Origin: Gammaproteobacteria bacterium
Lineage (GTDB): Bacteria > Pseudomonadota > Gammaproteobacteria > Pseudomonadales > Azotimanducaceae_A
Direction of reading: 5' to 3'
NCBI GenBank assembly: GCA_026713405.1
Contig: JAPOON010000797.1
Coordinates: 1 to 17,193 of the forward strand
DNA: 17,193 nucleotides
Shown here: positions 1-17,193 of the stretch, piece by piece
How positions within the stretch are numbered: position 1 is the first letter of the stretch
Layout: every line of letters starts with the position of its first letter
Translations under genes and position numbers: made by a program
Notes under the pieces: model-generated
Seen by the model: only the letters and a program-made list of their open reading frames with translations
Database searches by the model: none
What the model was told of the DNA's origin: nothing

Positions 1-103
1 GCCAGTTCAGCAGGTGTTCCATTGACCAGGATGTCAGCTGTCCAAACCAGCCTTCGGTGGTTTCGAGCCAGCCGCCGTCGTCTTCAGATTGGTAAAACTG
101 CAA
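1..103 (-). CDS. Possible 5' end of a truncated gene (unrecognised)
   Basis: Reading leftward from a TTG at 103 there is an open frame to the window edge of about 34 residues, rich in Trp, Glu and Asp (it contains SEDDGGWLETTEGWFGQL). A purine-rich stretch (GAGGCGG) lies about 9 nt before the TTG, and the frame begins about 28 nt after the stop of the TetR-like gene, as expected for a following operon member. The frame also stays open upstream of the TTG, and an in-frame ATG lies at 22. The stretch is too short to assign a family, and it could be non-coding. Confidence 0.35.
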   Translation of the reverse strand, partial: MQFYQSEDDGGWLETTEGWFGQLTSWSMEHLLNW

Positions 104-131
104 GTGGTTCCGCCTCGTGCGTCCGCGGAAC

Positions 132-800: not shown

Positions 801-947
801 TAACCGTGACGCTTTTCCGGCTCAGTTTAAACCAAATGCGGACCGACTTTCTAAGCGGGGCGGCGGCTTCGGGCGTGGAGACTCACGACAACGATCCTCG
901 GTCATCCAGCCATGGCAGGTCAGAGGAAACCCGCCCATGCACAGGGC
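801..947. other. Intergenic region upstream of the TetR-like gene
   Basis: This 147 nt gap lies between the TetR-like start and the amidohydrolase stop, both on the minus strand. It must contain the regulator's promoter unless the two genes are co-transcribed. I see no convincing -35/-10 pair or terminator hairpin. An AT-rich patch at 828-840 (gtttaaac) is the only notable feature. Confidence 0.5.
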
Positions 948-2084: not shown

Positions 2085-2144
2085 CAATTTTCCTCCCTTG
2101 GGGGACGTTGTGCGCAACAACCGAATGAATCCGGACAATGTTGA

Positions 2145-2173
2145 AGAATAGGTTTTGCCCGATGATTTAACAA
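2145..2173 (-). promoter_or_regulatory. Candidate sigma70 promoter for the amidohydrolase gene
   Basis: On the minus strand, TTGTTA (2168-2173) and TATTCT (2145-2150) are separated by 17 nt, a good match to a housekeeping promoter. This would give a leader of about 55 nt before the ATG at 2084. An imperfect inverted repeat (ttgtgcgcaacaa, 2109-2121) lies just downstream of the predicted transcription start and could be an operator. Assigned by pattern only. Confidence 0.45.
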
Positions 2174-2198
2174 TCGTTTGCCCAAGCCATGGACAGCA

Positions 2199-3449: not shown

Positions 3450-4321
3450 CAGCGCACGCGTCGAAGTGCCGTTTGGGTGAATTCCCTGTCGTCGAGATTC
3501 GTGCGGAACTGAAAGTCCGCCCAGTGCAGTGTCGTGCTCCCGCCGGTCAGGTGATTCACCATCGTCTGTTCTCCTGCCCGCCAGTACCGATCCAGGTATT
3601 GCCGATAATTGGAGATAGTGAGTGTCTTCAGGTGCGAGCCGCCCCGGTCGTAGAGTTTCAGCTTCCAGGGTCGAAGTTCGGCTGTGTCCTGCCAGACAAC
3701 CTTGCGGCTGTAACCGGATTTCTCGTCCAGGGGGAATTGCTCGGTCACCGTACAACTGAGTTCACCGCAGGGCTCGTCGCGAAGATATCTGTAGGTGTAC
3801 TCCTCCACCTCCGCAGAGGTCATGTCTTCGAACGAAACCTCGCTTCCCATGAACGATCCTGCACGCTTCGCAGCGCTGATGCGCTTCACCCTTTTCAGGG
3901 CCGGGAGATACAGCCACTGGTCGTCCTGGGTGTTGATGTGAGCGTGGGTCAGGAGCGCGGTGCCCTGTACGTCTCGCGGCTGATCGAACACGAACAGGCT
4001 CTTATCGCCATCCCCGGATGCCTCCAGCACCTTGAAGCGCATCTGGCGGACGCTCTCGCGGCCTTGCCGGTCACGCAGCACCATCGTCAGTCCGGCCGTG
4101 AAATCGCCAAAGCCGTCGCTCCTGGCGCTTGATTCACGCGCAATCCGCAGGCCTTTCTCCTCCGGCGTTTCTTCCTGGGCAAGCGCATCTGCATTGGGCA
4201 GGCAAGAGCATACCAGCGCCAGAACCATGAGATTGAACGAAGCACCCTGGGAGCATGGGAAACGCTGCGCGCGGCCTCGCCAGCAAGAACGCTCTTCGGC
4301 GTTCTCGTGGCCGGGGAACAT
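3449..4321 (-). CDS. Outer-membrane lipoprotein-sorting (LolA-like) periplasmic protein
   Basis: The frame is open from 4411 to 3449. I prefer the ATG at 4321 (290 residues) because the ATG at 4228 leaves a signal peptide with no basic n-region, whereas the longer form supplies Arg residues before MVLALVCSCLPNADALA. The body matches the LolA_like family PF17131: DGFGDFTAGLTMVLRDRQG, then KSLFVFDQPRDVQGTALLTH, then DDQWLYLPALKRVKRISAAKRAG and SFMGSEVSFEDMTSAEVEEY, the family's hallmark central motifs. Homologues act in the periplasm, probably binding lipids or hydrophobic cargo, and typically partner RND pumps and barrel proteins. The downstream barrel gene overlaps by one base. The upstream repeated element ends 16 nt before the chosen start, similar to its spacing at the other two sites. 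Confidence 0.85.
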   Translation of the reverse strand: MFPGHENAEERSCWRGRAQRFPCSQGASFNLMVLALVCSCLPNADALAQEETPEEKGLRIARESSARSDGFGDFTAGLTMVLRDRQGRESVRQMRFKVLEASGDGDKSLFVFDQPRDVQGTALLTHAHINTQDDQWLYLPALKRVKRISAAKRAGSFMGSEVSFEDMTSAEVEEYTYRYLRDEPCGELSCTVTEQFPLDEKSGYSRKVVWQDTAELRPWKLKLYDRGGSHLKTLTISNYRQYLDRYWRAGEQTMVNHLTGGSTTLHWADFQFRTNLDDREFTQTALRRVR

Positions 4322-4337
4322 CCGCGCAGGTCCGGCA

Positions 4338-4423
4338 CTCTTATTCGCGGATAAGGTTGTCAAATGAGTCAAGTTCCCCCCGAACGCTGTTTTCCCGTCC
4401 GGCTGGGGCATAGCCCCGTCAGT
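4338..4423 (-). repeat. Upstream element, copy A (86 nt), before the LolA-like gene
   Basis: Read on the minus strand, this segment starts ACTGACGGGGCTATGCCCCA, contains CCAGCCGGACGGG, then 34 nt from the start of CCAGCC comes TTGACTCATTTGACAAC, and it ends CCGCGAATAAGAG. Two further copies lie at 10956-11042 and 8422-8508 with the same order and nearly the same spacing. Copy A carries possible hairpins GGGGC-TAT-GCCCC and CTTAT-CCGCGA-ATAAG. It ends 16 nt before the chosen ATG. It may be an operator, a promoter module or a structured leader RNA; no standard -35/-10 pair is evident. Confidence 0.75.
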
Positions 4424-4521
4424 GATGGAAAGGCGACATTCTAACTCGATTCCCGAAAAGCCCGGAGGAGCGGGCCAGTGGAATCATCGGGAACGCTCAC
4501 AATCATTTTGTTTGGTACAAT

Positions 4522-4551
4522 TTGTGGTTGTATTTTATTAAAACTTATATT
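4522..4551 (+). promoter_or_regulatory. Candidate promoter of the precursor gene in an AT-rich patch
   Basis: The stretch 4498-4560 is strikingly AT-rich in an otherwise GC-rich window. TTGTGG (4522-4527) and TATATT (4546-4551) are separated by 18 nt. An alternative pair is TTGGTA at 4512 with TTATTA at 4535-4540. The exact start is uncertain, but a dedicated strong promoter for the structural peptide gene is likely. Confidence 0.5.
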
Positions 4552-4560
4552 ATCTTCAAA

Positions 4561-4572
4561 TCACGGTCGTGA
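4561..4572. promoter_or_regulatory. Inverted repeat TCACG-gt-CGTGA, possible operator
   Basis: A 5-bp dyad with a 2-nt centre lies about 10 nt after the candidate -10 box and 28 nt before the precursor ATG, a position where repressor binding would block transcription. Short dyads occur by chance, so this is tentative. Confidence 0.3.
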
Positions 4573-4600
4573 TCCGCCACATTGGTAGAAGGAGATAGCC

Positions 4601-4852
4601 ATGCGAACTGGCGATGAAATGCAGCAGCATATCGTTGAGAAGGCCGCCTTGGACGAGGCATTCAGGGAAGCGCTTCTCTCGGATCCGAGAAACACCATCA
4701 GTCAGGAATTGGGCATCACGATTCCCGACTCGATGAACATCCAGATCCACGAGAGCGACATGCAGACGGTGCACTTGGCGCTGCCGCCGGCTCCGAACAT
4801 GAGCGAGGAGCAACTCGAAGCCATATCAGCAGGCCTTTGCTGCTGCTGGTAA
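4601..4852 (+). CDS. NHLP-leader RiPP precursor peptide with LCCCW core
   Basis: The product is an 83-residue peptide. AAGGAGA (4589-4595) lies 5 nt before the ATG, the best ribosome binding site in the window. The nitrile-hydratase-alpha-like leader runs from about residue 7 to Gly78: FREALLSDPRNTISQELGIT, then NIQIHESDMQTVHLALPP, then MSEEQLEAISAG. The core would be Leu79-Cys80-Cys81-Cys82-Trp83, ending at the stop. Known NHLP precursors are cleaved after a Gly-containing site by the C39 peptidase of the matching exporter. The divergent YcaO gene group and the exporters on this window fit that. The three adjacent Cys are natural substrates for azoline formation. It is transcribed alone on the plus strand, followed by a strong terminator. 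Confidence 0.95.
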   Translation: MRTGDEMQQHIVEKAALDEAFREALLSDPRNTISQELGITIPDSMNIQIHESDMQTVHLALPPAPNMSEEQLEAISAGLCCCW

Positions 4853-4909
4853 ACCGGCTGCCGGTCAGAATGCGGAACATCCTGCATTTGCCGACAGATT
4901 GATCCGATC

Positions 4910-4950
4910 CCCGCCGCCCTGCCTTTGCTGGTTGGGCGGCGGGTTTGCAT
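4910..4950 (+). terminator. Rho-independent terminator after the precursor gene
   Basis: A perfect 10-bp GC stem (CCCGCCGCCC at 4910-4919, GGGCGGCGGG at 4934-4943) with a 14-nt loop is followed by TTTGCATTT. It lies 57 nt after the precursor stop. The short interrupted T tract is on the plus side, so it acts mainly for the precursor transcript. It also separates that transcript from the convergent gene ending at 4969. Confidence 0.85.
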
Positions 4951-4968
4951 TTCCGTGTCAGGCCAACC

Positions 4969-6087
4969 TCAGAATGAGACTGCCCCGGAAAGGACCATGA
5001 ACACGTAGCCCTTGGCTTTTTGAAGCTGGTTTTCGGAAATGACCAGCTTGATGTGGTGGATGCCACGCAGCAGCAGATAGCGGCCGGACTTCGCAAAAAG
5101 CGGTGCCGGTTTCGAAACCCAGCCGGCAAGGGCGCCCAGCTTCTCTGGAACAACCAGATCCTCATGTCCCAGGGCTTTCAGTAACGGATCCCAATCGTTC
5201 AGTCCGTCGAGCCAGTAACGTGAATCGTTTGTATATCTCTGCTTGACGATGAGCGCCAGGCCGAGGGTCGGGCCGAGACCGTCTTCCCGCACGTCGAGAT
5301 ACACCCCGGTTCTGAGAACGTTCACGCATGCTTCGAAGCGGGAAAGCACGGAGTCGACAGCCTGAATCCGCCCCGGCCAACCCGTTTCTTCAAGAAAGGC
5401 ATAAATTTCCCGCCGGGCTCTGAAGCCCATGACCGCCAGGCGAATTGCGGTTGAGCGAGACGGGAATACGCCGAACGCATCCAGGTGGGTATCTTGCGGC
5501 TGCGCCAGGTAAATTCGTTCGACATGCTTTCCCTGGGCGTCGTTCCTCTGCCAGCCGACGCAGGAGACGATCGCGTCAACCACCGTACGGACATCGTTCA
5601 CCTGTCCGGCGGCACCGATGATCGGGCGCTCACCGGGCCGCACGAACATTCCCGGATGTGGGTATTCTCCATCCGGCGCCGAGCCGATGTCATGTTCCAG
5701 CATCATCTTGTGGCCCACGACTTCACGCAGAGGCGATGGCTCCGCATCCATTTGTTCGAACAGCCGCGTAATCGCTTTCGCGGTCTCGTCTGTCTCGTCG
5801 GAATACGCGCGATCCCGGAAAAATGCCGCCGTTCGGGTTCCGCTCGCCAGCGAGACCCCGAAATCCGCTTTCGGGCCGGGTTCGTGCAGCGGCAGTTCAA
5901 AGCCGAAAGGCAGGGAAGCGATGACGGCCGGAAATTTGTCGGCGCACTCCAGGATGCGCTCCCACTGGTGATCTCCGATCAGGATCGGCGAAATCTTGTT
6001 GCGAAAGTTCGCCAGGAGTTCACCCATGGTGCCGCCCTCCCGGGCGAGAAGGTCCTGGGTAAGAGCGACTGCCCGGTCAGTGTTCAT
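4969..6087 (-). CDS. Unrecognised cluster protein (372 residues)
   Basis: The ATG at 6087 follows the YcaO stop by 9 nt, and the gap itself carries GGAGG, so the two are tightly co-transcribed. The protein is soluble, with no signal peptide or membrane segment. Its first 30 residues are helical; the middle has GEYPHPGMFVRPGERPIIGA and FPSRSTAIRLAVMGFRARRE; a region near 255-300 has LRTGVYLDVREDGLGPTLGL; the C-terminus has LLLRGIHHIKLVI and KAKGYVFMVLSG. The LxLDV and GIHHIKLVI segments look like beta strands of a folded enzyme or binding domain, but I cannot place it in a family. It is not a SagB-type FMN dehydrogenase: I see none of the nitroreductase motifs. By position it is a candidate modification or scaffold protein for the LCCCW peptide. 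Confidence 0.85.
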   Translation of the reverse strand: MNTDRAVALTQDLLAREGGTMGELLANFRNKISPILIGDHQWERILECADKFPAVIASLPFGFELPLHEPGPKADFGVSLASGTRTAAFFRDRAYSDETDETAKAITRLFEQMDAEPSPLREVVGHKMMLEHDIGSAPDGEYPHPGMFVRPGERPIIGAAGQVNDVRTVVDAIVSCVGWQRNDAQGKHVERIYLAQPQDTHLDAFGVFPSRSTAIRLAVMGFRARREIYAFLEETGWPGRIQAVDSVLSRFEACVNVLRTGVYLDVREDGLGPTLGLALIVKQRYTNDSRYWLDGLNDWDPLLKALGHEDLVVPEKLGALAGWVSKPAPLFAKSGRYLLLRGIHHIKLVISENQLQKAKGYVFMVLSGAVSF

Positions 6088-6096
6088 GTTGCCTCC

Positions 6097-8403
6097 TCAC
6101 GCGATGACAGGAGCGGGATTCAAATCGGCTTCGGCGAGAGGACGCTTGCGCCAGCCCATGCCGACCGGCACCTCGTAGAGGCGCCCGGGCGCGAATCTTG
6201 CCCAGAAATGACGCATGCCCGGCACGACGACCCGCACTACGGGCATGCCGATGTCGGGCCGGGTCTGGTCCAGCACCAGAAACTCCATGCCCCTCGATTC
6301 GACCAGCGCGCGGCAATGTTCCACGTCGTCGCGCGTGTCCGCCGATTCGACCGCCGGATAATCCGGAGCTTTGCGCAGGGGAGCGCTCTCCGCAGGCGCC
6401 AGCCAGGGACAATCGGCGAGTCGAGAAGTCTTCCACCAACAAAGCGCAAGCGGATCGTCGATCATCGGCCGGCCTTCGCCGCCTCCGGGACGTGGCAGCC
6501 AGGTAAGGCACTGGTTCAGTTCGCAAAGTGCACGCAGGGCCGCAAGGCGCGGGTCGGCGTGGGCGCCGGCGCCGTAAATGATGTCTTCGGTTTCCGCTTC
6601 CTGCCTGCGCGAAAGTGCGACGAACGCGGGAATGCCGATGTCGGAGGTAACGTCCAGCATCCACAGCTCACGGTCGTAACGGGCGTAGTAGTCCACGGCC
6701 GATGCCAGGTACTCGTCGTCGAAGCTCGAAAGATCGACCGCGGGCGCGCGCAGCCGGTTGTACCACCAGATGGCGAACGCATCGCGCTCGGCCAGTTCGT
6801 AGAACCCTTGCAGGATGGCTTCCTCGAGTGTATTGCCCGCGGCGCAACCGTTGGAATCGGCAATCAGGTCGGTGGGACCGCGCTGTTCGGCCGGCATGCT
6901 GTAGAGCATCGATGTCGGCAGATAGCGATGCCGCTCCTGCGTAAGCGACCAGACAGGTGTCCAGTCAACTTCGGCATCGGGGTCAAAGCGTCGCGGGACG
7001 ATGTTGTACGGGTGGCCCTGCGCATTGATGCTCTCTGCGTTGTCCAGCTGGTCATCGCTGAACAGTTGCACATGGTTGGGATGGATTGCCTCTTCTGCCC
7101 CGGCGAATTCAATGAATCGTCCGGCCACGCGAATCTCGTCGCCGTGCATGGCGCCGGAATAGCGCTCCACCGCCTCGCAGAGCGCACTGACCTCGGATTG
7201 CTCTCGTGTGCTGCCCTTGCCGGCGCTCTTGCTGCGCAGGCTGCGCCTGAGCGAACTCAGGCTGCGGCTTCTCATGCCGAGGTTGCTGCCAGCCCAGTAG
7301 ACATGCAGCCAGGAGTCGGTTTCATCGGTAGTGCGCGAAAGCCAGGTCACGACGCCACTGACCGGGCTCACCAGGTGGCGGTATTTCGCCAGCGTGACTT
7401 CCGGCGCCACGGTGCGCGCGCCGCCGCTGTTGCGATGGGCTTTGGGGCTCGCGTTCAGGCGTAGCGGAACCGGCGCTCGATCCGGCCGATGCAACGCTTC
7501 GTCGCCACAAGCCGGGCACTGCGGCCGGCGCGTTACCGGATGTCGTGAACTTGTGAACGTACCGAGATTCATCGCGATCGCCTGTTCGTGCAGAGGCGCC
7601 TCCTGTTCGAGCACCAGCCATTTGAGGACCTCTGCCGCGATCAGCCCGCAGCACCCTTCCAGCACTGCGGGATCTGCCGCGAACGGCTTGAAGGCGGCCT
7701 CCTCGCCGGCGAAGTTGCGCAGGAAATTGTGGACTTCCCGATGACTGCGCAGGCGGTAGCTGAGGCAGGCCCAGCAGGGACCCGTGTCGTCCGCGCGAAA
7801 GACCGGGCCGAACAGCGGCTCGACGCCGCGTGGCCGCACCAGCATCCAGGGTGTGCCCTGTTCGAGCCGACGCTGATTTTCGGTTGCAAGTCGTTCATCG
7901 AGATAGTCGTCACAGACGATGACAGTGAGCGCGGGGTCACAAGGCGCCACGCGGCCACCGCATTTTTCCAACTGCTGCGCCAACCGGCCCTCGTCACCGA
8001 CAACCGCGATGCGCGATTCTTCAAGCCGTCGTTCAACCCAGCGAGGCGATGCACCGAGCGAAGACCAGTAAGCCGCCCGGTGCTGGTCCAAGCCATGATC
8101 GGCGGAGACCACATAGCCCCTGGCAGAGAGCGACGCAATGGCCGCAGTTACATCGGCGGCAGCATGGGCGCCCTTTAGGGCCGTGACAATCCTGTCGCAC
8201 GAGCGCCGGCCGTCGAGCAGCGGCAACAGGTCGGTATACAGCTTGCCGTGCAGCAGGGTATTGAACGACTCGGAAACAAGCAGCGCCTGCTGTTCGCCAA
8301 CGTCGCGGAATTGCAGGTGAGGGGCAAGGGCGGGAAGCTCGACGAGACCCCGGTCGAGGGGAGTCGTCCTGATCAGTATCCCGCGCCGGGGATTCGTGTC
8401 CAT
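6097..8403 (-). CDS. Fused TOMM cyclodehydratase (E1-like partner plus YcaO)
   Basis: The product is 768 residues from the ATG at 8403. The frame stays open to the preceding gene's stop, with a TTG at 8457, but the ATG sits 18 residues before the conserved start of the domain. The N-terminal part resembles the leader-binding and E1-like half. It includes RIAVVGDEGR near 131 and two CxxC zinc pairs, CWAC (about 210-213) and CPAC (about 296-299). The YcaO half carries STREQSEVSALCEAVERYSG (about 398-417) and SNGCAAGNTLEEAI followed by YELAERDAFAIWW (about 517-547), the Glu-rich ATP/Mg motifs. It ends DLNPAPVIA, a variant of the Pro-rich C-terminus of TOMM YcaO enzymes. The enzyme uses ATP to cyclise Cys to thiazoline on the leader-bound peptide. 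It lies between the oxygenase gene and the unknown gene in one operon. Confidence 0.93.
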   Translation of the reverse strand: MDTNPRRGILIRTTPLDRGLVELPALAPHLQFRDVGEQQALLVSESFNTLLHGKLYTDLLPLLDGRRSCDRIVTALKGAHAAADVTAAIASLSARGYVVSADHGLDQHRAAYWSSLGASPRWVERRLEESRIAVVGDEGRLAQQLEKCGGRVAPCDPALTVIVCDDYLDERLATENQRRLEQGTPWMLVRPRGVEPLFGPVFRADDTGPCWACLSYRLRSHREVHNFLRNFAGEEAAFKPFAADPAVLEGCCGLIAAEVLKWLVLEQEAPLHEQAIAMNLGTFTSSRHPVTRRPQCPACGDEALHRPDRAPVPLRLNASPKAHRNSGGARTVAPEVTLAKYRHLVSPVSGVVTWLSRTTDETDSWLHVYWAGSNLGMRSRSLSSLRRSLRSKSAGKGSTREQSEVSALCEAVERYSGAMHGDEIRVAGRFIEFAGAEEAIHPNHVQLFSDDQLDNAESINAQGHPYNIVPRRFDPDAEVDWTPVWSLTQERHRYLPTSMLYSMPAEQRGPTDLIADSNGCAAGNTLEEAILQGFYELAERDAFAIWWYNRLRAPAVDLSSFDDEYLASAVDYYARYDRELWMLDVTSDIGIPAFVALSRRQEAETEDIIYGAGAHADPRLAALRALCELNQCLTWLPRPGGGEGRPMIDDPLALCWWKTSRLADCPWLAPAESAPLRKAPDYPAVESADTRDDVEHCRALVESRGMEFLVLDQTRPDIGMPVVRVVVPGMRHFWARFAPGRLYEVPVGMGWRKRPLAEADLNPAPVIA

Positions 8404-8421
8404 CTGGTTTTGCACCTGGGC

Positions 8422-8508
8422 CTGTTGTTCGCGGTTCGACGTTGCCAAATGAATCAACTGCGCGTCTGCCGGCCGGTGCCTCGCCAGGCTGGTAGTGGCC
8501 CCGGCAGT
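8422..8508 (-). repeat. Upstream element, copy C (87 nt), before the YcaO gene
   Basis: On the minus strand it reads ACTGCCGGGGCCACTACCAGCC, interrupted here for length after ACTGCCGGGGCCACTA, then CTGGCGAGG. TTGATTCATTTGGCAAC lies 35 nt after the start of CCAGCC, and it ends CCGCGAACAACAG. The order and spacing match copies A and B, apart from one extra base before CCGCGA. It fills the gap between the oxygenase stop (8536) and the YcaO ATG (8403), ending 18 nt before the ATG. That position supports the ATG over the upstream TTG. It implies the YcaO gene has regulatory input of its own even though it follows another gene. Confidence 0.7.
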
Positions 8509-8535
8509 ATATCCGTGCCGGATCGGCCGGAGCCC

Positions 8536-10932
8536 TCAGGCGCGCGTAACGAGCGCATCGATCCCGGCGGCGGCGCGGGTAGCGGTATCAGCGACCGCTG
8601 AACTCAGCGCGTCGAAGTCCTGGTGCCCGCAAGCGTTTGCAACCAGGGATCTGACCTTTGGCCCTGCAGCGTTAATGTCGAAACCCCCCTCGCCGATCAG
8701 GCACGTGACGCCTTGCAAATCGCGCCACAGGACCGCGGCTTCCGCCAGCGCTTCGGCACCGGCAAGATCGAACAGTTCTGCAGCGGTTGGGGCTGGGTCA
8801 TCGAGATCGGCTCCGGCGATTGTCAACTGAACGAAACGGGCGGCCCGCTCGACATCGTCGAGCCCGCCACGCATAGCGGCATAGGTGGATACACCTGTTT
8901 CGGCCGGGGCTTCCGGCCGTTCCCGCAACCAGGCGATCAACGTCTCGTTCGCGCCGCATTCAGCGAGGATTTCGCCGCGCGCGTCGCCGAAACGGCGGCC
9001 GATTTCGGAATCGCCGCATTCGAAGATACAGCGGGTTCTGGCGAGCAGGGAAATTTCGCCGGAAAATTCACTCCTGCAGTGCCCGGCAAGTTCGGAAAGA
9101 GGCAGCGCAAGCGGGTAATTCGAGTCGGGCGGGATGGGGGAGAACAACAGGCTGTCCTGCGCCAGGACGGCCAGCATCTCCCGGAAGCGGCGCCACAGAC
9201 GTTGATTGTCGCCAAACTGCGAGCCGCCGTGGACAATCAGCATTCGGACTGCAATACCGGGAAATACTTCCCGGCTGGCCAAGTCGCCCAGCAAGATGGC
9301 AGCCAGTCCGCCCTCGCGAATCGGTCCGGCCCGGTCGACGAAATCCGCGACCAGGGCGGCCACCACGGTCGAAATCGATGCTTCGGCGAGATTGGACAGC
9401 GCGGTTTTCGCCTCGGCCGGCGACAGGTTCCCGCGCACCGCGTGCATGCCGATCTGAAACGCCTTGTCGTTCGACCAGTTGCGCACGATTTCAGCCGTGT
9501 CTCCGGCATTGGTCGTCGGCAGTTCGGCGATCTGTTCCTTCATCTGCTGAACGCCCAGCTCGTGCGTCCAATACAGTCTCGCCAGGCCGCGCCGCGCAAT
9601 CGCTTCGTATTCCGGGTCCGGTACGAACCCTTTCGGCAGGTCGAGATCGGTGAATTCCCGGTCCTGCAGGTTATCGAGCAGCTCCGGATTGCGTTCGATC
9701 CGTTCCGCAAGCCGCGGGGCGGCGCCGAAGATTTCAATGATTGCCTCAAAGGCATCGGGCCGCGCCGCGGCGATTCGGCTGTCGTAGGCGCTCCAGTCAT
9801 CGATCTCGGGGTAGAAGTGCTTGCGCCATCGATCCACCAACGGGTCCATCTTCTCGAACCAGCGTTTGGGCCGCAGCACGATGTTCATCATGTCAGCGTA
9901 GGTTCCCGGCAATTCCGGCGACTCGTCGCGGCTTCGAACCTGCAGCAGCGGATAGTGGCGGTTTGCCATCGCATGATGATCGGCATGGCGCTGCATGTTG
10001 AAGAACATCCAGTTGCTGAACTTCCAGTCGGCGCTCCAGGAATGGCGTGGCATCACCTTTTCCCAACGGCCGTTCGGCAGACGCACCCGGCGCAGGCCGT
10101 AGTGTTGAAAATAGTTGCTTAGCTTCATCGAGAAGACACAGCCCAGGCCTAGGAAGGCAAAGATCAGAATCGCCAGAAAGCCGCTCATCCAGAACACCAG
10201 TCCATACCAGAACGCCACAAAGATGCCGTAGCGCCAGAACGGATTGCTGTAGTGCCAACGGGACAGGCGGCGCCGCGCCAGGCGTTCGCCGGCAACTGCC
10301 CAGGAATTGGTGAGATTGCTTACGATCTCCCTCGGGAAATAGCGCCAGAAACTCTCTCCCTTCGGGGCGGATCCCACATCGTGTGGCGTGCCGACCTTGG
10401 CATGGTGGATGTAGACGTGTTCCGTGGCGTACTGCGGATAGGAGGCACAGGCGAGCAGGAATTCGCCAAGCCGCCGTTCCCAGGTGGAGCGCCGATGCAC
10501 CAGTTCGTGACCCACCACGAACACGGCCTGCGCTTCCATGGTCAGGATGATCGCGAGGGCCACGTCTTCCCAGATCGTGAACGGATTGGCGACAAGGATC
10601 TGCCACAGGCCGAAAACGAGTGTCGGCGGCCACAGAAACGCCCACCCCCAGACCGGCAGGTTGTGCCAGAGCAGGCGGCGCTCCGGCGTATTCGCGGGAT
10701 CCATATTGCGCCCGTCGAGACCCAGCACCTTGTCGAGCGGCCCGGCCACGCTCATGAAGAGAAACGGCGCCAATAACCACCAGCCGCCGTGGACCAGGGC
10801 GGCGAGAATCAACGGAAAAACGGCCAATGGCAGATAGTGGGGGAGGGCGTTCCTGATGGACGGAACGATGTACGGAGCGAATTCAGCCTCGTCCGGGCCT
10901 GGGGCGCCCCCTATGGCTGTATCTTGCGGCAT
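8536..10932 (-). CDS. AlkB-type membrane di-iron oxygenase fused to a degenerate GlnE-like domain
   Basis: The product is 798 residues. Residues about 30-375 are a membrane alkane-hydroxylase/desaturase-type domain with hydrophobic segments near 33-65, 95-140 and 235-268. Its His clusters are HELVH (142-146), HVYIHH (172-177), NYFQHYGL (273-280) and QRHADHH (314-320); these match the AlkB signatures HELxHK, EHxxGHH, NYxEHYGL and LQRHxDHH. Residues about 395-798 resemble glutamine-synthetase adenylyltransferase: RLAERIERNPELLDNL (407-422), FQIGMHAVRGNLSPAEA (492-508), AILLGDLASREV (545-556) and GGLDDVERAARFVQL (689-703). The nucleotidyltransferase GSDxD acids are missing (FPGIAVRMLIV at 557-567), so that half is probably non-catalytic. 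The start ATG lies 23 nt after element copy B. The domain may hydroxylate or desaturate the peptide or a lipid partner (inference). Confidence 0.9.
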   Translation of the reverse strand: MPQDTAIGGAPGPDEAEFAPYIVPSIRNALPHYLPLAVFPLILAALVHGGWWLLAPFLFMSVAGPLDKVLGLDGRNMDPANTPERRLLWHNLPVWGWAFLWPPTLVFGLWQILVANPFTIWEDVALAIILTMEAQAVFVVGHELVHRRSTWERRLGEFLLACASYPQYATEHVYIHHAKVGTPHDVGSAPKGESFWRYFPREIVSNLTNSWAVAGERLARRRLSRWHYSNPFWRYGIFVAFWYGLVFWMSGFLAILIFAFLGLGCVFSMKLSNYFQHYGLRRVRLPNGRWEKVMPRHSWSADWKFSNWMFFNMQRHADHHAMANRHYPLLQVRSRDESPELPGTYADMMNIVLRPKRWFEKMDPLVDRWRKHFYPEIDDWSAYDSRIAAARPDAFEAIIEIFGAAPRLAERIERNPELLDNLQDREFTDLDLPKGFVPDPEYEAIARRGLARLYWTHELGVQQMKEQIAELPTTNAGDTAEIVRNWSNDKAFQIGMHAVRGNLSPAEAKTALSNLAEASISTVVAALVADFVDRAGPIREGGLAAILLGDLASREVFPGIAVRMLIVHGGSQFGDNQRLWRRFREMLAVLAQDSLLFSPIPPDSNYPLALPLSELAGHCRSEFSGEISLLARTRCIFECGDSEIGRRFGDARGEILAECGANETLIAWLRERPEAPAETGVSTYAAMRGGLDDVERAARFVQLTIAGADLDDPAPTAAELFDLAGAEALAEAAVLWRDLQGVTCLIGEGGFDINAAGPKVRSLVANACGHQDFDALSSAVADTATRAAAGIDALVTRA

Positions 10933-10949
10933 AGCGCTTCTCTGCTGAG

Positions 10950-11099
10950 CTAGACCTCTTGATCGCGCGGCAAGTTCACAAACGAATCAAGTCTGCGGGC
11001 GACGACCGTTCTCTCGTCGGGCTGGGGCATCGCTCCTTCAGTGCTTCTTTGAACAAAATTCATCGTACCATCGGACACCGCGACCTGCCTATCCTTCAT
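10950..11099 (-). CDS. Possible small ORF (49 residues), ATGA-coupled to the toroid gene
   Basis: An ATG at 11099 overlaps the toroid gene stop as ATGA and opens a 49-codon frame (MKDRQVAVSDGTMNFVQRS...DQEV) ending 17 nt before the oxygenase ATG. An internal ATG at 11027, with AAGGAG 3 nt upstream, would give a 26-residue peptide starting MPQPDERTVV. Against it, the region is largely element copy B, and the conservation with copy A slips by one base relative to this frame, which points to conserved DNA or RNA, not protein. No family resemblance is seen. Confidence 0.22.
   Translation of the reverse strand: MKDRQVAVSDGTMNFVQRSTEGAMPQPDERTVVARRLDSFVNLPRDQEV
10956..11042 (-). repeat. Upstream element, copy B (87 nt), before the AlkB/GlnE-like gene
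   Basis: On the minus strand it runs ACTGAAGGAGCGATGCCCCA, then CCAGCCCGACGAG, then TTGATTCGTTTGTGAAC 35 nt after the start of CCAGCC, ending GCGCGATCAAGAG. By hand alignment about 60 of 87 positions match copy A with a single gap. A possible terminal hairpin CTTG...CAAG corresponds to CTTAT...ATAAG in copy A. It ends 23 nt before the ATG at 10932. Confidence 0.75.
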
Positions 11100-12406
11100 G
11101 TGCTCACGACCTCGAGCAGACGCTCCAGGGCCTCGATGCAAAACGCGGAGGTCACAGCTTCGGAGCCATGCCCGAACTGCCCGACGATGCCCCACTTCAG
11201 CGCCTGGTCGCCAAACGCGAGAAGCTCCGGCCAGCTACCGTCCTCACGTTGCGCACCGATGAAACTCTCAACAGCCCGTTTCGCATCGATACTGTCGAGG
11301 CTACCGATGTTGTAGAGCGCGGAGATGGCCTGAGCGGTCAGCAGGACGTTGCCGAATTCGCCCTTCCCGTCGCGCAGGGACAGGATTCGGTCCAGAAGTA
11401 TCGGGCGCAGATGATCGAGGGCAGGCTGCGTGAGGATCATGGCACGACTGATTGCGTAGTAGGCCGTGACCCTGTCCGGGTACCATTTGGACGAGCCCTC
11501 GAGTTTGTCCTCGGCAATCATGGCTTCCAACCATGTCAGCGCTGCACGTGTTTCCGGCCTATTGCCAAGATAGGCAATGACGTTCGCATTGACCACGGGG
11601 TCGGCATCGATGCGAAAGCTCGAGACCACATCGGGTTCACCCTCGGCCAGCACCCAGGTCATGAACAGGCCTTCGTTGTCGCGATTGGCCAACATCGGTG
11701 CAACGTTCCGGCCCAGCAGCATCCAGGGGTGGGATCGGTGGGATGCAAGAACGAGCGAACAGAGTGCGGTGCTGTCGAGATCCAGGGGCAGATGGCGGTA
11801 ATAGCGCCACAATCCGGGATATTCCATCGTGTCGACAAGATGGGACCGGGTACGCGCACACAGGGCCCTGGCGCGCTCTTCATCGCAGCTTTCCAGGGCA
11901 AGTACGCACAGCGCGGAGATAAACGCGGGCCTTTCGAAATGCCGGGGAACGTTCGGGTCGGCTATGTTGAACCGGATGCAGTGCCAGGCTCCGTTTTCAT
12001 CGAGCGTGGATTCGAGGAAATCGAGACCGCGGCGGATGCTTTCCCTACCTGCCTTCGCCAGTTCTCCGACCGCGAGCGAACTCAACCGTGCGTCCGCCGG
12101 GTTCGCCCCGGCGGGACGGATCGGAGGCGCGGGGTCGTACATGGTTTTTTTGAGAAACTCGAGAGAGGCCACGCCTGTCCTGGCGGCGTCCCGTTCCTCG
12201 TCGCTCTGCTTGCTCCTCGGGGGCAGCACCAGATGCGTCAAGGCATCGGTTTCTTCATGCACGTGAATCTCGTGATCTTCGGCGAGCGTCACGCCGAATT
12301 CCTGTTCGATGGTTGCTTTCGGCTTCGACAGAAGACGTTCGCGAAAGTCAGGGTCTTCGCTGGCTCTCTTAGCGATGTGATCTTCCGCGTCAATGGGTTT
12401 ATTCAT
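11096..12406 (-). CDS. NHLP leader fused to an alpha/alpha-toroid (squalene-cyclase-like) protein
   Basis: The product is 436 residues; the ATG at 12406 has TGGAAGG about 7 nt upstream. Residues 7-78 align without gaps to residues 7-78 of the precursor peptide with 29 of 72 identities, both ending in Gly78. Shared pieces include FRE.LLS.P, TI.QE.G.T and HL.LPP. From about residue 110 the chain is a helical repeat protein of the prenyltransferase/squalene-oxidase type. Its repeats include GLDFLESTLDENGAWHC (127-143), LPLDLDSTALCSL (206-218; the DLDSTA resembles the class II cyclase DxDDTA), RIDADPVVNANVIAYLG (265-281) and the QW-like AQREDGSW (385-392). It may be a cyclase, a peptide-binding toroid or a large leader-directed export substrate. 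It has no signal peptide. It is divergent from the FAD gene. Confidence 0.88.
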   Translation of the reverse strand: MNKPIDAEDHIAKRASEDPDFRERLLSKPKATIEQEFGVTLAEDHEIHVHEETDALTHLVLPPRSKQSDEERDAARTGVASLEFLKKTMYDPAPPIRPAGANPADARLSSLAVGELAKAGRESIRRGLDFLESTLDENGAWHCIRFNIADPNVPRHFERPAFISALCVLALESCDEERARALCARTRSHLVDTMEYPGLWRYYRHLPLDLDSTALCSLVLASHRSHPWMLLGRNVAPMLANRDNEGLFMTWVLAEGEPDVVSSFRIDADPVVNANVIAYLGNRPETRAALTWLEAMIAEDKLEGSSKWYPDRVTAYYAISRAMILTQPALDHLRPILLDRILSLRDGKGEFGNVLLTAQAISALYNIGSLDSIDAKRAVESFIGAQREDGSWPELLAFGDQALKWGIVGQFGHGSEAVTSAFCIEALERLLEVVST

Positions 12407-12481
12407 TGCTGCCTTCCATTAGTCTGGATCCTGACAGAGCCGTAAGTCCCTGGACGCAATCGCCTGCGGTGCTGTTAGTAT

Positions 12482-12493
12482 CCGAAGCTTCGG
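12482..12493. promoter_or_regulatory. Perfect 12-bp palindrome CCGAAGCTTCGG, candidate operator
   Basis: It lies in the 106-nt region between the divergent toroid (start 12406) and FAD (start 12513) genes, 19 nt before the FAD ATG and just after a TAGTAT (12475-12480) that could be a -10 box. A repressor here could control the plus-strand gene or both. No confident -35 box is seen for either direction. Confidence 0.35.
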
Positions 12494-12512
12494 TAGGGCG
12501 GGAGAATACCCC

Positions 12513-13964
12513 ATGACTGGTCCTGAAACTCGTCCGGCTCGCAATCAAGGCGTGTCTCCGGAGGGATCGGAAATCCTGGTGGTAGGCGCAGGTGCGGCCG
12601 GCCTCGCCGCTGCCTGGACTCTCGCGGTCCGCCGCAAGGACAGCAATTGCCGCGTTCGGGTACTGGAAGCCTCGGAGAAGATCGGCGGGCGCATGTTCTG
12701 CGAGGAGATCGACGGCTTTCATGTGCATGGCGGCGCCAGCGTCATCCATGAGTCCTTCACAACGACCAGAGGCCTGGCGCGCGATCTGGGCGTGGAATTG
12801 TGGCAAAGCCCCAAAAAGAAAGGCGGCCAAAGCTACGCCGACGGCCACTTTTGGGGCGCCTACGTGGGTGGTTCGCTGAAGCAGACCCTGACGACCTTGC
12901 GCACCATGCTCTTTTCGCCGCAGCACACGCTGGCCGGAAATTGGGAATTCATGCGCCTGTTCGGGATGCTCAAGAAGCGCGCCGGGGATCTCGATTTCGA
13001 AGACCATTCCCGAATGTTGGACCTGGACACAGGCGAGAGCTTCGCCGAATTCGCTCGCGCCAATTCCCTTGGCCGGTATTTGCAACAGTCTGGAGAACTG
13101 GACCTCAACTGTTTCACCGCGGGGAGTTCCGACCGGGTGGGGGCTGCCTATGGAATGGCGTTGCTGTGGCTCTGGACCATCAATCCGGCTACGCGCAGCT
13201 ATCTGCCCAGGCAGGGAATCGGCGCCCTGGCAAAGGCACTGACGGATGCCTGCGCGAATCTCATTCGCGTTTCCACCCCGGTCGAACAAATTGTCGTTAA
13301 AGACGGGGCGGCGAGCGGCGTTGTCACTTCCAGTGGAGAAAAGATCGAGGCCGATGCAGTCATTTGCGCCACCACCGCTTCGAGCGCCGCACGAATCAAT
13401 CCGGAATTGCCTGGAGAACTGCGGGCCGTGCTTGAACGTGTCAGCTACGGCTCTTGCTGCAACGTAGCCTTTGGGCTGGATACGAACATCCTGGAGGAGG
13501 GATCTCACGCGGGGCTCTTTCCTCCGGGTTCTCCAACCTTTCTGACGATGGTTACCAATCTGGCGGCCACGACTCCGGAGGCGGCGCCTCCAGGCAGGAC
13601 CCTCGTACATGCGCTGGCCATCGGCGAGCAGGCAGGGGCACTCTTTGCCTTGAACGACGATGAAATCGTGCGCCGCGTGGCTGAAGAAATGCGCCGGTTC
13701 TTTCCCGCCATGCCGGAACAACCCCTGTTCGCCAGGGTCTACCGCTGGCCGGAAGGCCTGTGTCTCGCGCCCGGCGGCATGCTCAGGGACGTGCACGACA
13801 TGCGTTTGCGGCTGCCCCAATGCACGCGGGGGCTGTTCCTCGCAGGCGACTACATGCTTCTGCCGTCCCTGAACGGCGCCATGAAAAGCGGGGTTGAAGC
13901 CGCAGAGGCGAGCCTGTCGTACATTGCCTCGGCGAGCAGGGGCGCGAATGCAGCTGGCCGATGA
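12513..13964 (+). CDS. FAD-dependent amine-oxidase/desaturase-like oxidoreductase
   Basis: The product is 483 residues; the ATG is preceded by GGCGGGAGAA. The N-terminus has the Rossmann FAD motif ILVVGAGAAGLAAAWTL (GxGxxG at 25-30), a VRVLEASEKIGGRM stretch with the ribose-binding Glu, and FHVHGGASVIHESF, as in the amine oxidase/phytoene desaturase/protoporphyrinogen oxidase superfamily (PF01593). The C-terminus has GLFLAGDYMLLPSLNGAMKS followed by GVEAAEASL, the second FAD contact. No signal peptide or membrane anchor is seen. Substrates in this superfamily are amines, polyenes or porphyrinogens. In this cluster it could act on the peptide or oxidise azolines to azoles in place of the missing SagB-type dehydrogenase (inference). 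It converges with the exporter gene, with 21 nt between the two stops and no clear hairpin. Confidence 0.88.
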   Translation: MTGPETRPARNQGVSPEGSEILVVGAGAAGLAAAWTLAVRRKDSNCRVRVLEASEKIGGRMFCEEIDGFHVHGGASVIHESFTTTRGLARDLGVELWQSPKKKGGQSYADGHFWGAYVGGSLKQTLTTLRTMLFSPQHTLAGNWEFMRLFGMLKKRAGDLDFEDHSRMLDLDTGESFAEFARANSLGRYLQQSGELDLNCFTAGSSDRVGAAYGMALLWLWTINPATRSYLPRQGIGALAKALTDACANLIRVSTPVEQIVVKDGAASGVVTSSGEKIEADAVICATTASSAARINPELPGELRAVLERVSYGSCCNVAFGLDTNILEEGSHAGLFPPGSPTFLTMVTNLAATTPEAAPPGRTLVHALAIGEQAGALFALNDDEIVRRVAEEMRRFFPAMPEQPLFARVYRWPEGLCLAPGGMLRDVHDMRLRLPQCTRGLFLAGDYMLLPSLNGAMKSGVEAAEASLSYIASASRGANAAGR

Positions 13965-13985
13965 ATTCGGGTCTGAAAATGCGGA

Positions 13986-16931
13986 TCAGGCGATCTGCCT
14001 TTTGACCAGTTCGTTGAACGCGCCGCCAATGTCCATGAGTTCCTCGAAGGAGCCCGTCTGTACCACCTTGCCAGCCTGCATGACGTAAATCCGGTCAGCC
14101 TGTTCCAGCGTTGACAGGCGGTGGGCGATTACGATTCGAGTTGAAGTCAAAAGAGCCAGGTTCTGCATGACCTCGGCCTGATTCTCGTTGTCGAGCCAGT
14201 TGGTCGCTTCGTCGAGCAGCATGATTCGCGGACCGCCGATCAGCGACCGGGCGATGGTGACACGCTGACTCTCGCCGCCGGACAGCACAGACCCGCTGGC
14301 ACCGACCATCGTCATCAACCCCATGGGCATCGCCTTGATCTCGCTCTCGATGCCGGCGGCCCGGGCGGTTGCCCAGACATCGTCGACGGTCACCGCCTCG
14401 TGGTGTGCGACGATGTTGTCCCATAGATCCTGGGGATGGAGACGCACGGACTGGGGAACCGCGCCGATCTTGCGGCGAACCTGTTTCAGGTTCAGGTGCC
14501 GCAGGTCGCGCCCGTCGTAGTACACGGCGCCGGCCGACGGCCGGTCCATGCCGAGTGCGAGCCGGAAAAGGGTGCTCTTGCCGGCGCCCGACTCGCCTGC
14601 GATCGCGACGAATTCGCCGGGACGGGCGCGAATGGTGACATCGTCGAGGATCAGCGGGCCGTCGGGATCGTAGCGGAAGGAAATGCGATCGAACAGAACG
14701 TCGCCGCCCAGACGTTCAACTGGCTCTCCTTCGACCTCGGATTCCGGAACCGCGGCGAGCAGGGGACGCATCTGGTCGAACGCCGGCAGCATGGCGGCAA
14801 CGGAACCGAACGACTCGCCGAGCCGGGCAATTGCGGACTGAAAGGCGATGAACAGGGTGTAGACAACGAGAAAGTCGCCTACCGGAACAACCCGGTCGCC
14901 CGTCGTGGACACGGCGAAAAGCAATACCCCGGCGGCGATGAAGGGAACCGCGGCACCGAACGCCTGCGAATGCCCCTCTAGCGCGCCCAGTTCGAGTTCC
15001 GCGCGCTTCTGCTCGCGATAGTCCCGCGCCCAGATGGCGAAAGCCGATGCTTCCGCGTTTTCCACACGCAGCTTGGCGATGCCTTCTACAATCTGGAACA
15101 GCCGGCCGACGACGCGGCGAGCCGCCCCGATCATCCGCCCATGCGGTACGATCTGGCGCAATCCGAGCGCGACGGTGACCAGCAGCGAAACCAGGCTGAA
15201 AGCGAGGGCGATTACCCCGAGGGCGGTATCGTAGAAAAAGATGACGGCAAACACCGGAAGCAGGAAAAAGATGGAAAGCAGACTGTCGGCGACGATTCCC
15301 TGCAAACCATCACGAAGATGCTGGAAAGTCATGCCGGACATGGCCAGATCGCCCGCCGGGTGACGGTGCAGAATGCTTGACGGAAGGCGCATGAGGCGGT
15401 CCCAGAAGGCAGCTTCGGCGCGTGAGGCCGAGCGACCCTCGAGCCGCATCATCGCCGTGCTTTGCAGCAGGTGCAGCATTGCGCCGAACAGGCCGAATCC
15501 GGCAAGCGTCACGGCCACAGCGTAGAGCGCTCCGGGGCTTCCGCCCGCTACGGCATGGGTTGCGACGAATCCCAGGGCGAGTGCCGGCAGCAGTTTGATC
15601 AATCCGCCAGGAAGCCCTGCAATCACCAGTCTCGCCAGATCGCCGGCCGATCCACGCAAGGCGATTCCCAGGAGGTCTGCCGGTTTTACGTTCCCCGACG
15701 GCAATGGCCGGTAGAACATCCATGCTTCGTCCTGAAGCGCCCCCGCACGATCCGCCGCGATCCGGGTACTGCGTCCGGTGACCGGGTCGATCTCTCGATA
15801 GCGCCCGAACAAACGCGGCAGCAACGCTACGGGACGACCGTCCTCGGCGCGAAATGCCAGCATCGGGCCGCTGTCGCCACGCCACCAGTCCTCACCGGTC
15901 TTGAGTCGCACGCGCCGGGCGCGTACGCCGGATACATCCAGAATGTCCACGAGTCCGACCGGAGGGCTGGAAGGCCCCGAGCGCACAGGAATCTTGAAGT
16001 CGAATCCCTGGCGGCGGCCGATGATCTGCAGCGCGTCCGAGAGTGCCGTGTCCTCGGCATCGGCATCCCGATCGACCGGCATGTCGTACATGTTGAATAG
16101 CCGCGCCCTGGCGGCTTTTTCGGCCGTGCGGCGGCTGGAGGTCCGCTCGCGCTCGAGATTCGCGTCATCCACCACCGCCAGGCGGCGGTTGAGGCGCTCC
16201 AGATTGAAGGCGACTGCGTGAAACGCGGCGAGTGCCGGCTGCAGCACGCCCTGTTCCGCAAGCGTTTCAGTGGATTTACCCGAAACTGTCGCCTCGCCGA
16301 ACAAAGTGAGCCAACTGGACCGCGTCAGCGGCGTAACGACTTCGTGAGAGCCGCTCGCCTCGGCGACTTCCGCCTGGTCGACCATGTCCATGAACAGACC
16401 CGTACCCTGCGATGGCTCGGACACCCAGACCACCCCGCGCCGTACGGATAGCGTACAAGGGCCCAGGGTCTGGGTCAGGCCGGGCTCAGCCAGGGCAGTC
16501 GGGCGCGGAAGCCGGCTTACGAAACGCGCAAGCGTGTCCGTGATGTCTGTCAGCCACGCCTCCGTCTGTTCTGCCTGTTCCGCTGGATGAACCTCGGACA
16601 GCCGGGTTGCCGGCAGGCGCTTCAGCACGGTACCCGGCAATCCTTTGGCAATCAGGCTGAGCGTCGTGTCCTTGCCGTTGTCGTCCTGTTCGTCCGGTGC
16701 GACCCCGGGCAGCAGGCTGCCCGCTGCACGGCGCAGCAGATGCTGCGGTGAAGCCTGCTCGACCCCGTCCCTGAACTCAACCAGGAAGAGATCGACCGCG
16801 CCCCGGTCGATAAACCAGACACTGTCCGCATCGTCGAGCTTCACCGGCTGGTTGCCGGCGCAGGGCACGGATGTACCGGAGCGAGCGGCGAGATCGGCAA
16901 TCGTTTTGTATTGCTGGCTCGTGTCCTGCAT
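13986..16931 (-). CDS. NHLM-type ABC exporter, permease/ATP-binding subunit
   Basis: The product is 981 residues. The ATG at 16931 overlaps the stop of the upstream exporter gene as TGATG. The long N-terminal part (about 1-420) is soluble and has no C39 peptidase signature. Membrane helices lie near 436-465, 470-490, 550-592 and 660-700. The nucleotide-binding domain is complete: Walker A GESGAGKST (779-787), signature LSGGESQRV (884-892), Walker B IMLLDEATNWLD (903-914) and an H-loop His at about 937. The architecture matches the second, peptidase-free ATPase of NHLP-associated exporters (NHLM family, TIGR03797-like). It would pair with the truncated upstream subunit and export the cleaved peptide across the inner membrane. 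Confidence 0.92.
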   Translation of the reverse strand: MQDTSQQYKTIADLAARSGTSVPCAGNQPVKLDDADSVWFIDRGAVDLFLVEFRDGVEQASPQHLLRRAAGSLLPGVAPDEQDDNGKDTTLSLIAKGLPGTVLKRLPATRLSEVHPAEQAEQTEAWLTDITDTLARFVSRLPRPTALAEPGLTQTLGPCTLSVRRGVVWVSEPSQGTGLFMDMVDQAEVAEASGSHEVVTPLTRSSWLTLFGEATVSGKSTETLAEQGVLQPALAAFHAVAFNLERLNRRLAVVDDANLERERTSSRRTAEKAARARLFNMYDMPVDRDADAEDTALSDALQIIGRRQGFDFKIPVRSGPSSPPVGLVDILDVSGVRARRVRLKTGEDWWRGDSGPMLAFRAEDGRPVALLPRLFGRYREIDPVTGRSTRIAADRAGALQDEAWMFYRPLPSGNVKPADLLGIALRGSAGDLARLVIAGLPGGLIKLLPALALGFVATHAVAGGSPGALYAVAVTLAGFGLFGAMLHLLQSTAMMRLEGRSASRAEAAFWDRLMRLPSSILHRHPAGDLAMSGMTFQHLRDGLQGIVADSLLSIFFLLPVFAVIFFYDTALGVIALAFSLVSLLVTVALGLRQIVPHGRMIGAARRVVGRLFQIVEGIAKLRVENAEASAFAIWARDYREQKRAELELGALEGHSQAFGAAVPFIAAGVLLFAVSTTGDRVVPVGDFLVVYTLFIAFQSAIARLGESFGSVAAMLPAFDQMRPLLAAVPESEVEGEPVERLGGDVLFDRISFRYDPDGPLILDDVTIRARPGEFVAIAGESGAGKSTLFRLALGMDRPSAGAVYYDGRDLRHLNLKQVRRKIGAVPQSVRLHPQDLWDNIVAHHEAVTVDDVWATARAAGIESEIKAMPMGLMTMVGASGSVLSGGESQRVTIARSLIGGPRIMLLDEATNWLDNENQAEVMQNLALLTSTRIVIAHRLSTLEQADRIYVMQAGKVVQTGSFEELMDIGGAFNELVKRQIA

Positions 16932-17193
16932 CAGCCTGACCTGACCAGCTTGTGATAGCTGCCGCCGGTGTCCGCAATCAACTTGTCATGGGTGCCCCGC
17001 TGCACTTCGACGCCCCTCTCGAGCACGACGATTTCGTCGCAATCCCGCACCGTGCTGAGCCGGTGCGCCACGATGAGGCAGGTGCACCCGCGACGCCGCA
17101 GGGCGGCGGCGACGGGTTCTTCCGTTGCGGCATCCAGCGCGCCGGGCGCCCCCTCCCGCATGCACACGGGCGGCATTCTTACCAAGGGCCAGC
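16931..17193 (-). CDS. C-terminal end of a second ABC exporter subunit (truncated by window edge)
   Basis: About 86 residues of the ATP-binding domain are visible, with no stop before the edge, so the gene continues to the right. The distal part is normal: CTCLIVAHRLSTVRDCDEI with the H-loop His, then VLERGVEVQRGTHDKLI and the C-terminal helix. The region where LLLDEATSALD is expected instead reads VCMREGAPGALD, with the Walker B Asp as Glu and the catalytic Glu as Gly. By position it should be the peptidase-containing (C39) NHLM subunit, whose N-terminal protease would cut the leader after Gly78; that part is not in the window. The stop overlaps the next gene's ATG. Confidence 0.8.
   Translation of the reverse strand, partial: WPLVRMPPVCMREGAPGALDAATEEPVAAALRRRGCTCLIVAHRLSTVRDCDEIVVLERGVEVQRGTHDKLIADTGGSYHKLVRSG

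Follow-up and report, generated by a model that had tools for sequence, protein, structure and literature searches.

RiPPs (ribosomally synthesized and post-translationally modified peptides) with cyclised terpenes, srp clusters and one-domain class II terpene cyclases are already known. In NctPC, an ABBA prenyltransferase is fused to an MstE-like cyclase; a C20 chain is placed on a tryptophan (Trp) of the RiPP and then cyclised (PMC13290415, citing Hubrich et al. 2024). The srp proteusin clusters of sponge microbiomes comprise the precursor SrpE with the core LCCCW, the YcaO protein SrpC, which makes thiazolines, and SrpI, which brominates (PMC10858898, PMC10286304); the literature describes this cluster as conserved among sponge species (PMC9426513). 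Here we consider a stretch of 17,193 nucleotides from a gammaproteobacterial assembly (GCA_026713405.1, contig JAPOON010000797.1, positions 1 to 17,193), hereafter the window. Its gene at 11096..12406 on the minus strand encodes a fusion protein of 436 amino acids (aa), termed TOR, that joins a leader of the NHLP (nitrile hydratase-like leader peptide) type to a predicted class II terpene cyclase (open reading frame, profiles, BLASTP and fold comparison). TOR is probably the class II cyclase of an srp-type RiPP cluster, acting on a prenylated peptide and using its leader as a docking handle.

Like the NctPC and ChrPC maturases, the window is proposed to combine prenyl transfer and subsequent cyclisation in RiPP tailoring. 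Unlike these maturases, in which both domains reside in one protein, it has a separate prenyltransferase-like gene, and its cyclase bears an NHLP leader.

Architecture of the leader-cyclase fusion

TOR is a single open frame that begins with an ATG at 12406 and ends with a stop codon at 11096. On the minus strand it comprises the NHLP leader domain (residues 1-78, 12173..12406; profiles, BLASTP, structure model and tree), a linker whose conservation falls below that of the leader nucleus and of the toroid (residues 79-112, 12071..12172), and an alpha/alpha toroid with the predicted fold of a monodomain class II terpene cyclase (residues 113-436, 11099..12070; model and fold comparison). A preliminary description of the window had aligned residues 7-78 without gaps to the precursor encoded at 4601-4852 on the plus strand, with 29 of 72 identities and Gly78 in both proteins. 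The count is exact; BLASTP extends the gapless match to residues 6-80 (29 of 75 identical, E-value 2e-17), with mismatches at residues 6, 79 and 80. The profile TIGR03793 (leader_NHLP) matches TOR residues 7-71 with 49.7 bits (E-value 2.4e-13), a near miss of the curated cut-off of 50.9 by 1.2 bits, and PF02979 matches with 28.4 bits, above its cut-off of 27.2. The precursor itself reaches 72.3 bits against TIGR03793. As a background, 22 of 150 genomes from the phylum of genome G332 had TIGR03793 matches at an E-value of 1e-5, the best with 44 bits and none above the cut-off, and 14 control genomes had none; the leader of TOR thus scores above chance against NHLP profiles.

The toroid behind the leader, likewise part of the preliminary description, is supported by the predicted structure, whose fold matches class II terpene cyclases with drimenol synthase as the nearest, and which consists of a single alpha/alpha toroid with an acid motif of the form DxD(D/S/T). 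This motif, DLDST (residues 209-213, 11768..11782, minus), with the catalytic aspartate expected at D211, had been listed as DLDSTA among signs of descent from cyclases, and it goes further than that, as it overlays the DxDTT of drimenol synthase. DLDS is present in all 58 aligned rows (57 related loci and the window) and aligns to the DLDTT of AsDMS; D209 and D211 are found in 58 of 58 rows. A second motif, QREDGSW (residues 386-392, 11231..11251, minus; sequence and alignment), we take to be of the QW type. TOR shares with MstE and AsDMS the fold and the single toroid (with DLDST in TOR versus DLDTT in AsDMS), and with the HAD-fused AsDMS the combination of an N-terminal domain and one cyclase domain. 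Unlike MstE and AsDMS, TOR has an N-terminal NHLP leader, is only about 15-20% identical to them and occurs in a RiPP setting; the best-matching known cyclase is about 19% identical to the toroid. TOR is predicted to be a one-domain class II terpene cyclase.

A protein search in which 7996 candidates were scored gave at least 1075 homologues of TOR, with a query coverage of 97-100% for all 120 among the matches listed. A scan of contigs returned the 57 loci with TOR-fusion relatives, 58-78% identical to the window protein. Three further alignments were used: A1 with 66 of the 120 listed homologues and the window (67 rows), A2 with 33 locus rows and the window, and A3 with 16 loci, the window and one leaderless relative. 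Besides the two aspartates, many toroid residues show no variation among the 67 rows of A1. We note that the NCBI name of one family member of 433 aa, P0109, is 'NHLP leader peptide family RiPP precursor', a label that covers the entire fusion; automatic annotation can mislead in such cases.

Origin and constraint of the leader domain

The structure model predicts three helices in the leader of TOR (residues 7-17, 19-27 and 29-37). Like MprE7 and SrpE, TOR has a folded three-helix leader nucleus, an LPP segment and the boundary glycine; unlike them, it is without a short core and has lost L(X)4L, and carries a 355-residue enzyme instead. In comparison with the srp precursors, TOR has retained the HxxLPP segment as well as the helical nucleus, but not the tail. 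In a tree of leader segments (78 columns and 50 rows, namely 15 TOR leaders, 19 srp precursor leaders, 4 others and 12 of 25 nitrile-hydratase-type segments), the TOR leaders form one clade (100/99) and group with RiPP precursors, apart from the 12 nitrile-hydratase-type segments (support 100/100). They join the precursors of loci L084, L085, L086 and L088 (98/94), which in a long-branched tree is a hint only.

Cyclase relatives without a leader were found in 1 of 398 genomes of the phylum of G001 (single-sequence query), in 3 of 298 genomes of the phylum of G011 and in 3 of 297 genomes of the phylum of G022 (profile query). A leader profile that gives the window TOR 116 bits had no significant match in the six complete leaderless cyclases. 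A tree with long branches was built from 26 of the 58 TOR rows and six of the seven leaderless loci, the partial L092 being omitted, and here the leader-bearing cyclases form one clade against the leaderless ones (98/96). In the preliminary description, a general lack of the leader among homologues would have counted against the finding. The outcome is divided: the leader-bearing rows make up that one clade, and the six complete outgroup cyclases are without the leader.

The leader might be a relic, a piece of a precursor that became fused, no longer has a function and is tolerated because it folds by itself. The absence of a leader from the six outgroup cyclases fits this explanation, as does a mean pairwise distance (31 loci) of 0.55 for the TOR leader, compared with 0.33 for the toroid and 0.20 for the precursor leader; in one close pair, L022 and L030, the leader has a dN/dS (ratio of nonsynonymous to synonymous rates) of 2.7. 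However, the leader is present in all 58 rows (criterion: 60 or more of the first 70 alignment positions filled), its residues A15, D18, R22, E36, H58, P63 and G78 do not vary among the 67 rows of A1, and its median dN/dS over 956 pairs (residues 5-66) is 0.25 versus 0.18 for the toroid, where the pairs are non-independent and dS is large in most. Judged by these sequence comparisons, the leader evolves faster than the toroid and yet is constrained by purifying selection, and we regard a functionless relic as unlikely.

Cluster partners and the proposed pathway

The gene at 4601..4852 (plus strand; profile, BLASTP and published core) encodes an srp-type proteusin precursor of 83 aa that ends in ISAG-LCCCW, with the core at 4835..4849 and the stop codon at 4850-4852. 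Because its core equals that of the published SrpE, the window is assigned to the srp-type proteusin clusters, with which it shares the NHLP precursor, the LCCCW core and a YcaO cyclodehydratase with a leader-binding part, the counterpart of SrpC (6097..8457, minus; profiles). The gene at 4969..6087 (minus) encodes a protein of 372 aa with a predicted ABBA-type prenyltransferase fold, including the ABBA barrel. The preliminary description was right that, within a matching cluster, a toroid derived from cyclases bears a leader of the RiPP type; it overlooked the srp type of the cluster and the prenyltransferase look of this 372-aa neighbour.

The association recurs in related genomes. Among the 35 of 57 loci with full flanks of 10 kb, the precursor and the 372-aa gene are present in all 35, YcaO in 32, a large exporter in 31 and an AlkB-like gene in 26. 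The precursor lies within 700 bp of the 372-aa gene in 34 of the 45 loci that have both. A Trp halogenase gene, a further likeness to the srp clusters, was detected in 35 of 57 loci (profile, more than 100 bits), with one representative, L031, checked against Pfam and confirmed as PF04820; counts obtained by clustering, 27 of 57 and 17 of the 35 fully flanked loci, are too low. Unlike the published srp clusters, the window (17 kb) is without a brominase gene: a profile of the halogenases of related loci found no SrpI-type brominase in its six frames, a negative that may reflect truncation of the window. Of the 298 genomes examined in the phylum of G011, 19 carry srp-type TOR; each of these 19 also harbors the srp-type 372-aa gene, itself found in 20. 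Full-length precursor matches (at least 126 bits, residues 1-83) were obtained in 20 genomes of this phylum and in one more where the match is split over contig ends. TOR is carried by 17 of these 21 genomes (the others being G470, G509, G521 and G620), and two TOR genomes, G008 and G700, are without a precursor match. Single absences mean little because metagenome-assembled genomes (MAGs) are incomplete.

We propose the following pathway. The YcaO protein would convert the three cysteines of LCCCW into thiazolines, as shown by others for SrpE and SrpC. While the peptide is bound by its leader, the ABBA-fold enzyme of 372 aa would then attach an isoprenoid chain to it, with the terminal Trp as the most likely site, and, as fold and motif suggest, the toroid would protonate this chain with D211 of DLDST and cyclise it; where a cluster has a brominase, this enzyme would act as well. 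The NHLP domain of TOR is probably a leader that the enzyme took over from a precursor; this domain kept the folded nucleus and lost the L(X)4L tail. The captured leader would most likely dock the cyclase in the leader-binding machinery, a non-covalent counterpart of the prenyltransferase-cyclase fusion in NctPC. In one published case, a lanthipeptide prenyltransferase requires the folded nucleus of a Nif11-type leader as well as its motif (PMC12715784). The present analysis establishes the fusion, the fold, the motif, the co-occurrence of the genes, the loss of L(X)4L and the constraint, and from these we infer prenyl transfer, its site, the chain length, cyclisation and docking.

Several observations weigh against parts of this pathway. 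The 372-aa protein has no Pfam or NCBIfam match and no sequence match in the PDB even at an E-value of 10; it is a predicted prenyltransferase by fold alone, with a root-mean-square deviation of 4.4 A and 8% identity in a comparison of the predicted fold. Its gene also accompanies Trp-free LCCCG cores, and Trp therefore need not be its acceptor. In a mirror-tree comparison of 31 loci (excluding L051 and L054, where the 372-aa gene is duplicated), the distances of the TOR leader correlate best with those of the exporter (0.72) and of its own toroid (0.70), whereas the correlation is poor for the 372-aa protein (0.29) and for the precursor (0.08). Co-variation lends docking on the prenyltransferase no support; the high value for the exporter may be due to gene adjacency, as in 47 of 50 loci the gene immediately upstream of TOR is that of the exporter. 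The structure model is poor at TOR residues 51-92. At the positions of the a1 helix that correspond, by alignment, to the contacts of MprE7 with the YcaO RiPP recognition element, the majority residues differ between TOR and the precursors, with D for E at one of them. The leaderless cyclase relatives apparently work without a leader, and for three of the six complete ones (L087, L089 and L091) neither a precursor nor a 372-aa relative was found.

For comparison, at the remaining three complete leaderless cyclases, 372-aa relatives lie beside the cyclase (L086 and L088) or about 6 kb away (L090), with E-values of 9e-11, 1e-4 and 3e-9, respectively, in a small search; the NHLP precursors at L086 and L088 end in EGWRPF and ICWSNCSNYIP, respectively. 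An NHLP precursor also stands beside a 372-aa relative in L084 (1290-2012 with 2098-3306) and L085 (3312-4040 with 4211-5335), with no cyclase within the 7.5-8 kb examined. These two precursors are of a different type with a Trp-containing end stretch (NAWNSLNQNS); that of L084 ends in SQSWQDFANAWNSLNQNS.

The toroid might instead cyclise a free isoprenoid, for example one that is attached afterwards as a terpene unit, which we consider improbable. According to PDB entry titles, drimenol synthase, the nearest fold, uses free farnesyl diphosphate. Four LCCCG sister clusters from the phylum of G011 (L126, L127, L128 and L129 in genomes G490, G501, G478 and G572) combine a precursor, YcaO and a 372-aa relative with no cyclase by genome search and no brominase within the stretches examined, a sample that is small and includes a stretch of only 4.3 kb (L129). 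In these data, the cyclase accompanies a terminal Trp, but the prenyltransferase-like gene needs none. For a cyclase of free isoprenoids, however, the leader domain would serve little purpose, the MstE-like domain of NctPC works after prenyl transfer (PMC13290415), and the structures of MstE were solved with prenylated dihydroxybenzoates, as stated in their entry titles.

Of the three roles offered in the preliminary description, a docking enzyme fits best, and the other two, a giant precursor cut after Gly78 and an exported protein, are weakened. Both of the latter would have the peptidase exporter cleave after Gly78, so that the toroid leaves the cell and acts outside or is itself the product. 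TOR does have a leader, Gly78 is invariant in 58 of 58 rows and in all 67 rows of A1, the NCBI name of P0109 is that of a precursor, the leader distances follow those of the exporter best, and the adjacent exporter gene is of the NHLM type: in the window, an NHLM-type export permease/ATPase of the ABC (ATP-binding cassette) class is encoded at 13986..16931 (minus; TIGR03797, 677 bits, cut-off 709.4), followed by the C-terminal piece of an NHLM peptidase/permease/ATPase exporter at 16931..17191 (minus; profile), which is cut by the window end. The leader tail (residues 67-78, 12173..12208, minus; alignment of 58 rows) argues otherwise. In MprE7, L(X)4L at positions -12 and -7 is required by YcaO (PMC12455567), and the brominase SrpI makes its main contact with the same motif (PMC10858898). 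In the srp precursors both positions are hydrophobic in 52 of 52 sequences, with L or M at -7 and I or V at -4. In TOR the motif has become (mostly L/F/Y)(X)4R: position -12 is hydrophobic in 53 of 58 rows, whereas position -7 (R72) is Arg in 58 of 58 and position -4 is Ala in 56 of 58. TOR thus departs from an NHLP precursor in the profile cut-off, in the tail and in the short core, as 358 residues follow Gly78. The loss of L(X)4L makes a giant precursor unlikely and a docking handle likelier; the toroid, moreover, has an invariant catalytic motif and no precursor-like core, and a folded domain of 355 residues would be an unusual load for such exporters. We consider cleavage and export of the toroid very unlikely. 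As an observation in its own right, Gly78 and the pair E71-R72 (12165-12195, minus) stay invariant in all 58 rows despite the loss of the cleavage and recognition motif.

A toroid without cyclase activity, serving as a scaffold or as a leader-mimicking regulator of YcaO or the exporter, would suit a docking-type leader and the low identity to known cyclases, and is made very improbable by the invariant D209 and D211, the many other invariant toroid residues and the purifying selection on the toroid.

Further genes, distribution and implications

The gene at 8536..10932 (minus; profiles) encodes a membrane fatty-acid-desaturase/AlkB-like oxygenase whose C-terminal part has weak matches to the GlnE adenylyltransferase; it may possibly be an oxidase of the product. 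Genes related to this fusion occur in 40 of 57 loci. Between the cyclase and the exporter lies a flavin amine-oxidase-family gene (12513-13964, plus; profile), which is probably not core to the cluster because it is found in only 2 of the 57 related loci. Tandem pairs of 372-aa genes occur in L051 (11337-13770) and L054 (11337-13944), with unequal scores against the window copy. A second precursor, with a core that starts with MCCCG or WCCCG, is present in L018 (19664-19918), L022 (18567-18857), L023 (19867-20625) and L030 (18369-18674).

The MAGs with the 57 relatives are labelled Gammaproteobacteria, Alphaproteobacteria, Gemmatimonadetes, Acidobacteria, Nitrospirales, Nitrospinota, Latescibacterota and others. 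One name, Spongia_Bin9, points to a sponge; a sponge origin of the remaining relatives is suggested by the srp literature. L007 (genome G006) is labelled Gammaproteobacteria yet grouped in the phylum of G011 (Gemmatimonadales), and MAG labels are unsafe as taxonomy. Most inner branches of the TOR tree are unsupported; one pair with the labels Acidobacteria and Gammaproteobacteria (98/91) hints at horizontal spread of TOR.

The word 'prenyltransferase' does not occur in the main texts of PMC10858898 and PMC9426513, nor do 'prenyl' and 'terpene' in the review PMC12615548. No description of an NHLP-terpene cyclase fusion or of a prenyltransferase in srp clusters was found in the accessible literature, with most subscription journals, Nguyen 2021 and Hubrich 2024 lying outside. 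Within this literature, the leader-bearing cyclase and the pairing of prenyltransferase and cyclase in srp clusters may be new. The final srp product was reportedly termed cryptic in Nguyen 2021.

A broader reading, which we hold tentatively and with rather less than even confidence, is that a RiPP leader was converted from a substrate tag into an enzyme docking domain, and that the srp peptide is a thiazoline-containing, terpene-bearing and often brominated compound made across several phyla. As part of the same claim, the ancestral NHLP precursor of a prenylated peptide would have fused to a cyclase and then lost its cleavage and recognition tail. Our results point to a possible cyclised terpene group on a peptide that is widespread in sponges. 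If the srp cluster does encode a terpene cyclase together with a prenyltransferase, its predicted product has to be revised: reconstitution with YcaO and brominase alone would miss the terpene group, and metabolome searches of sponges would use the wrong masses. The leader domain on TOR would then be a natural case of the recruitment of a tailoring enzyme via leader mimicry.
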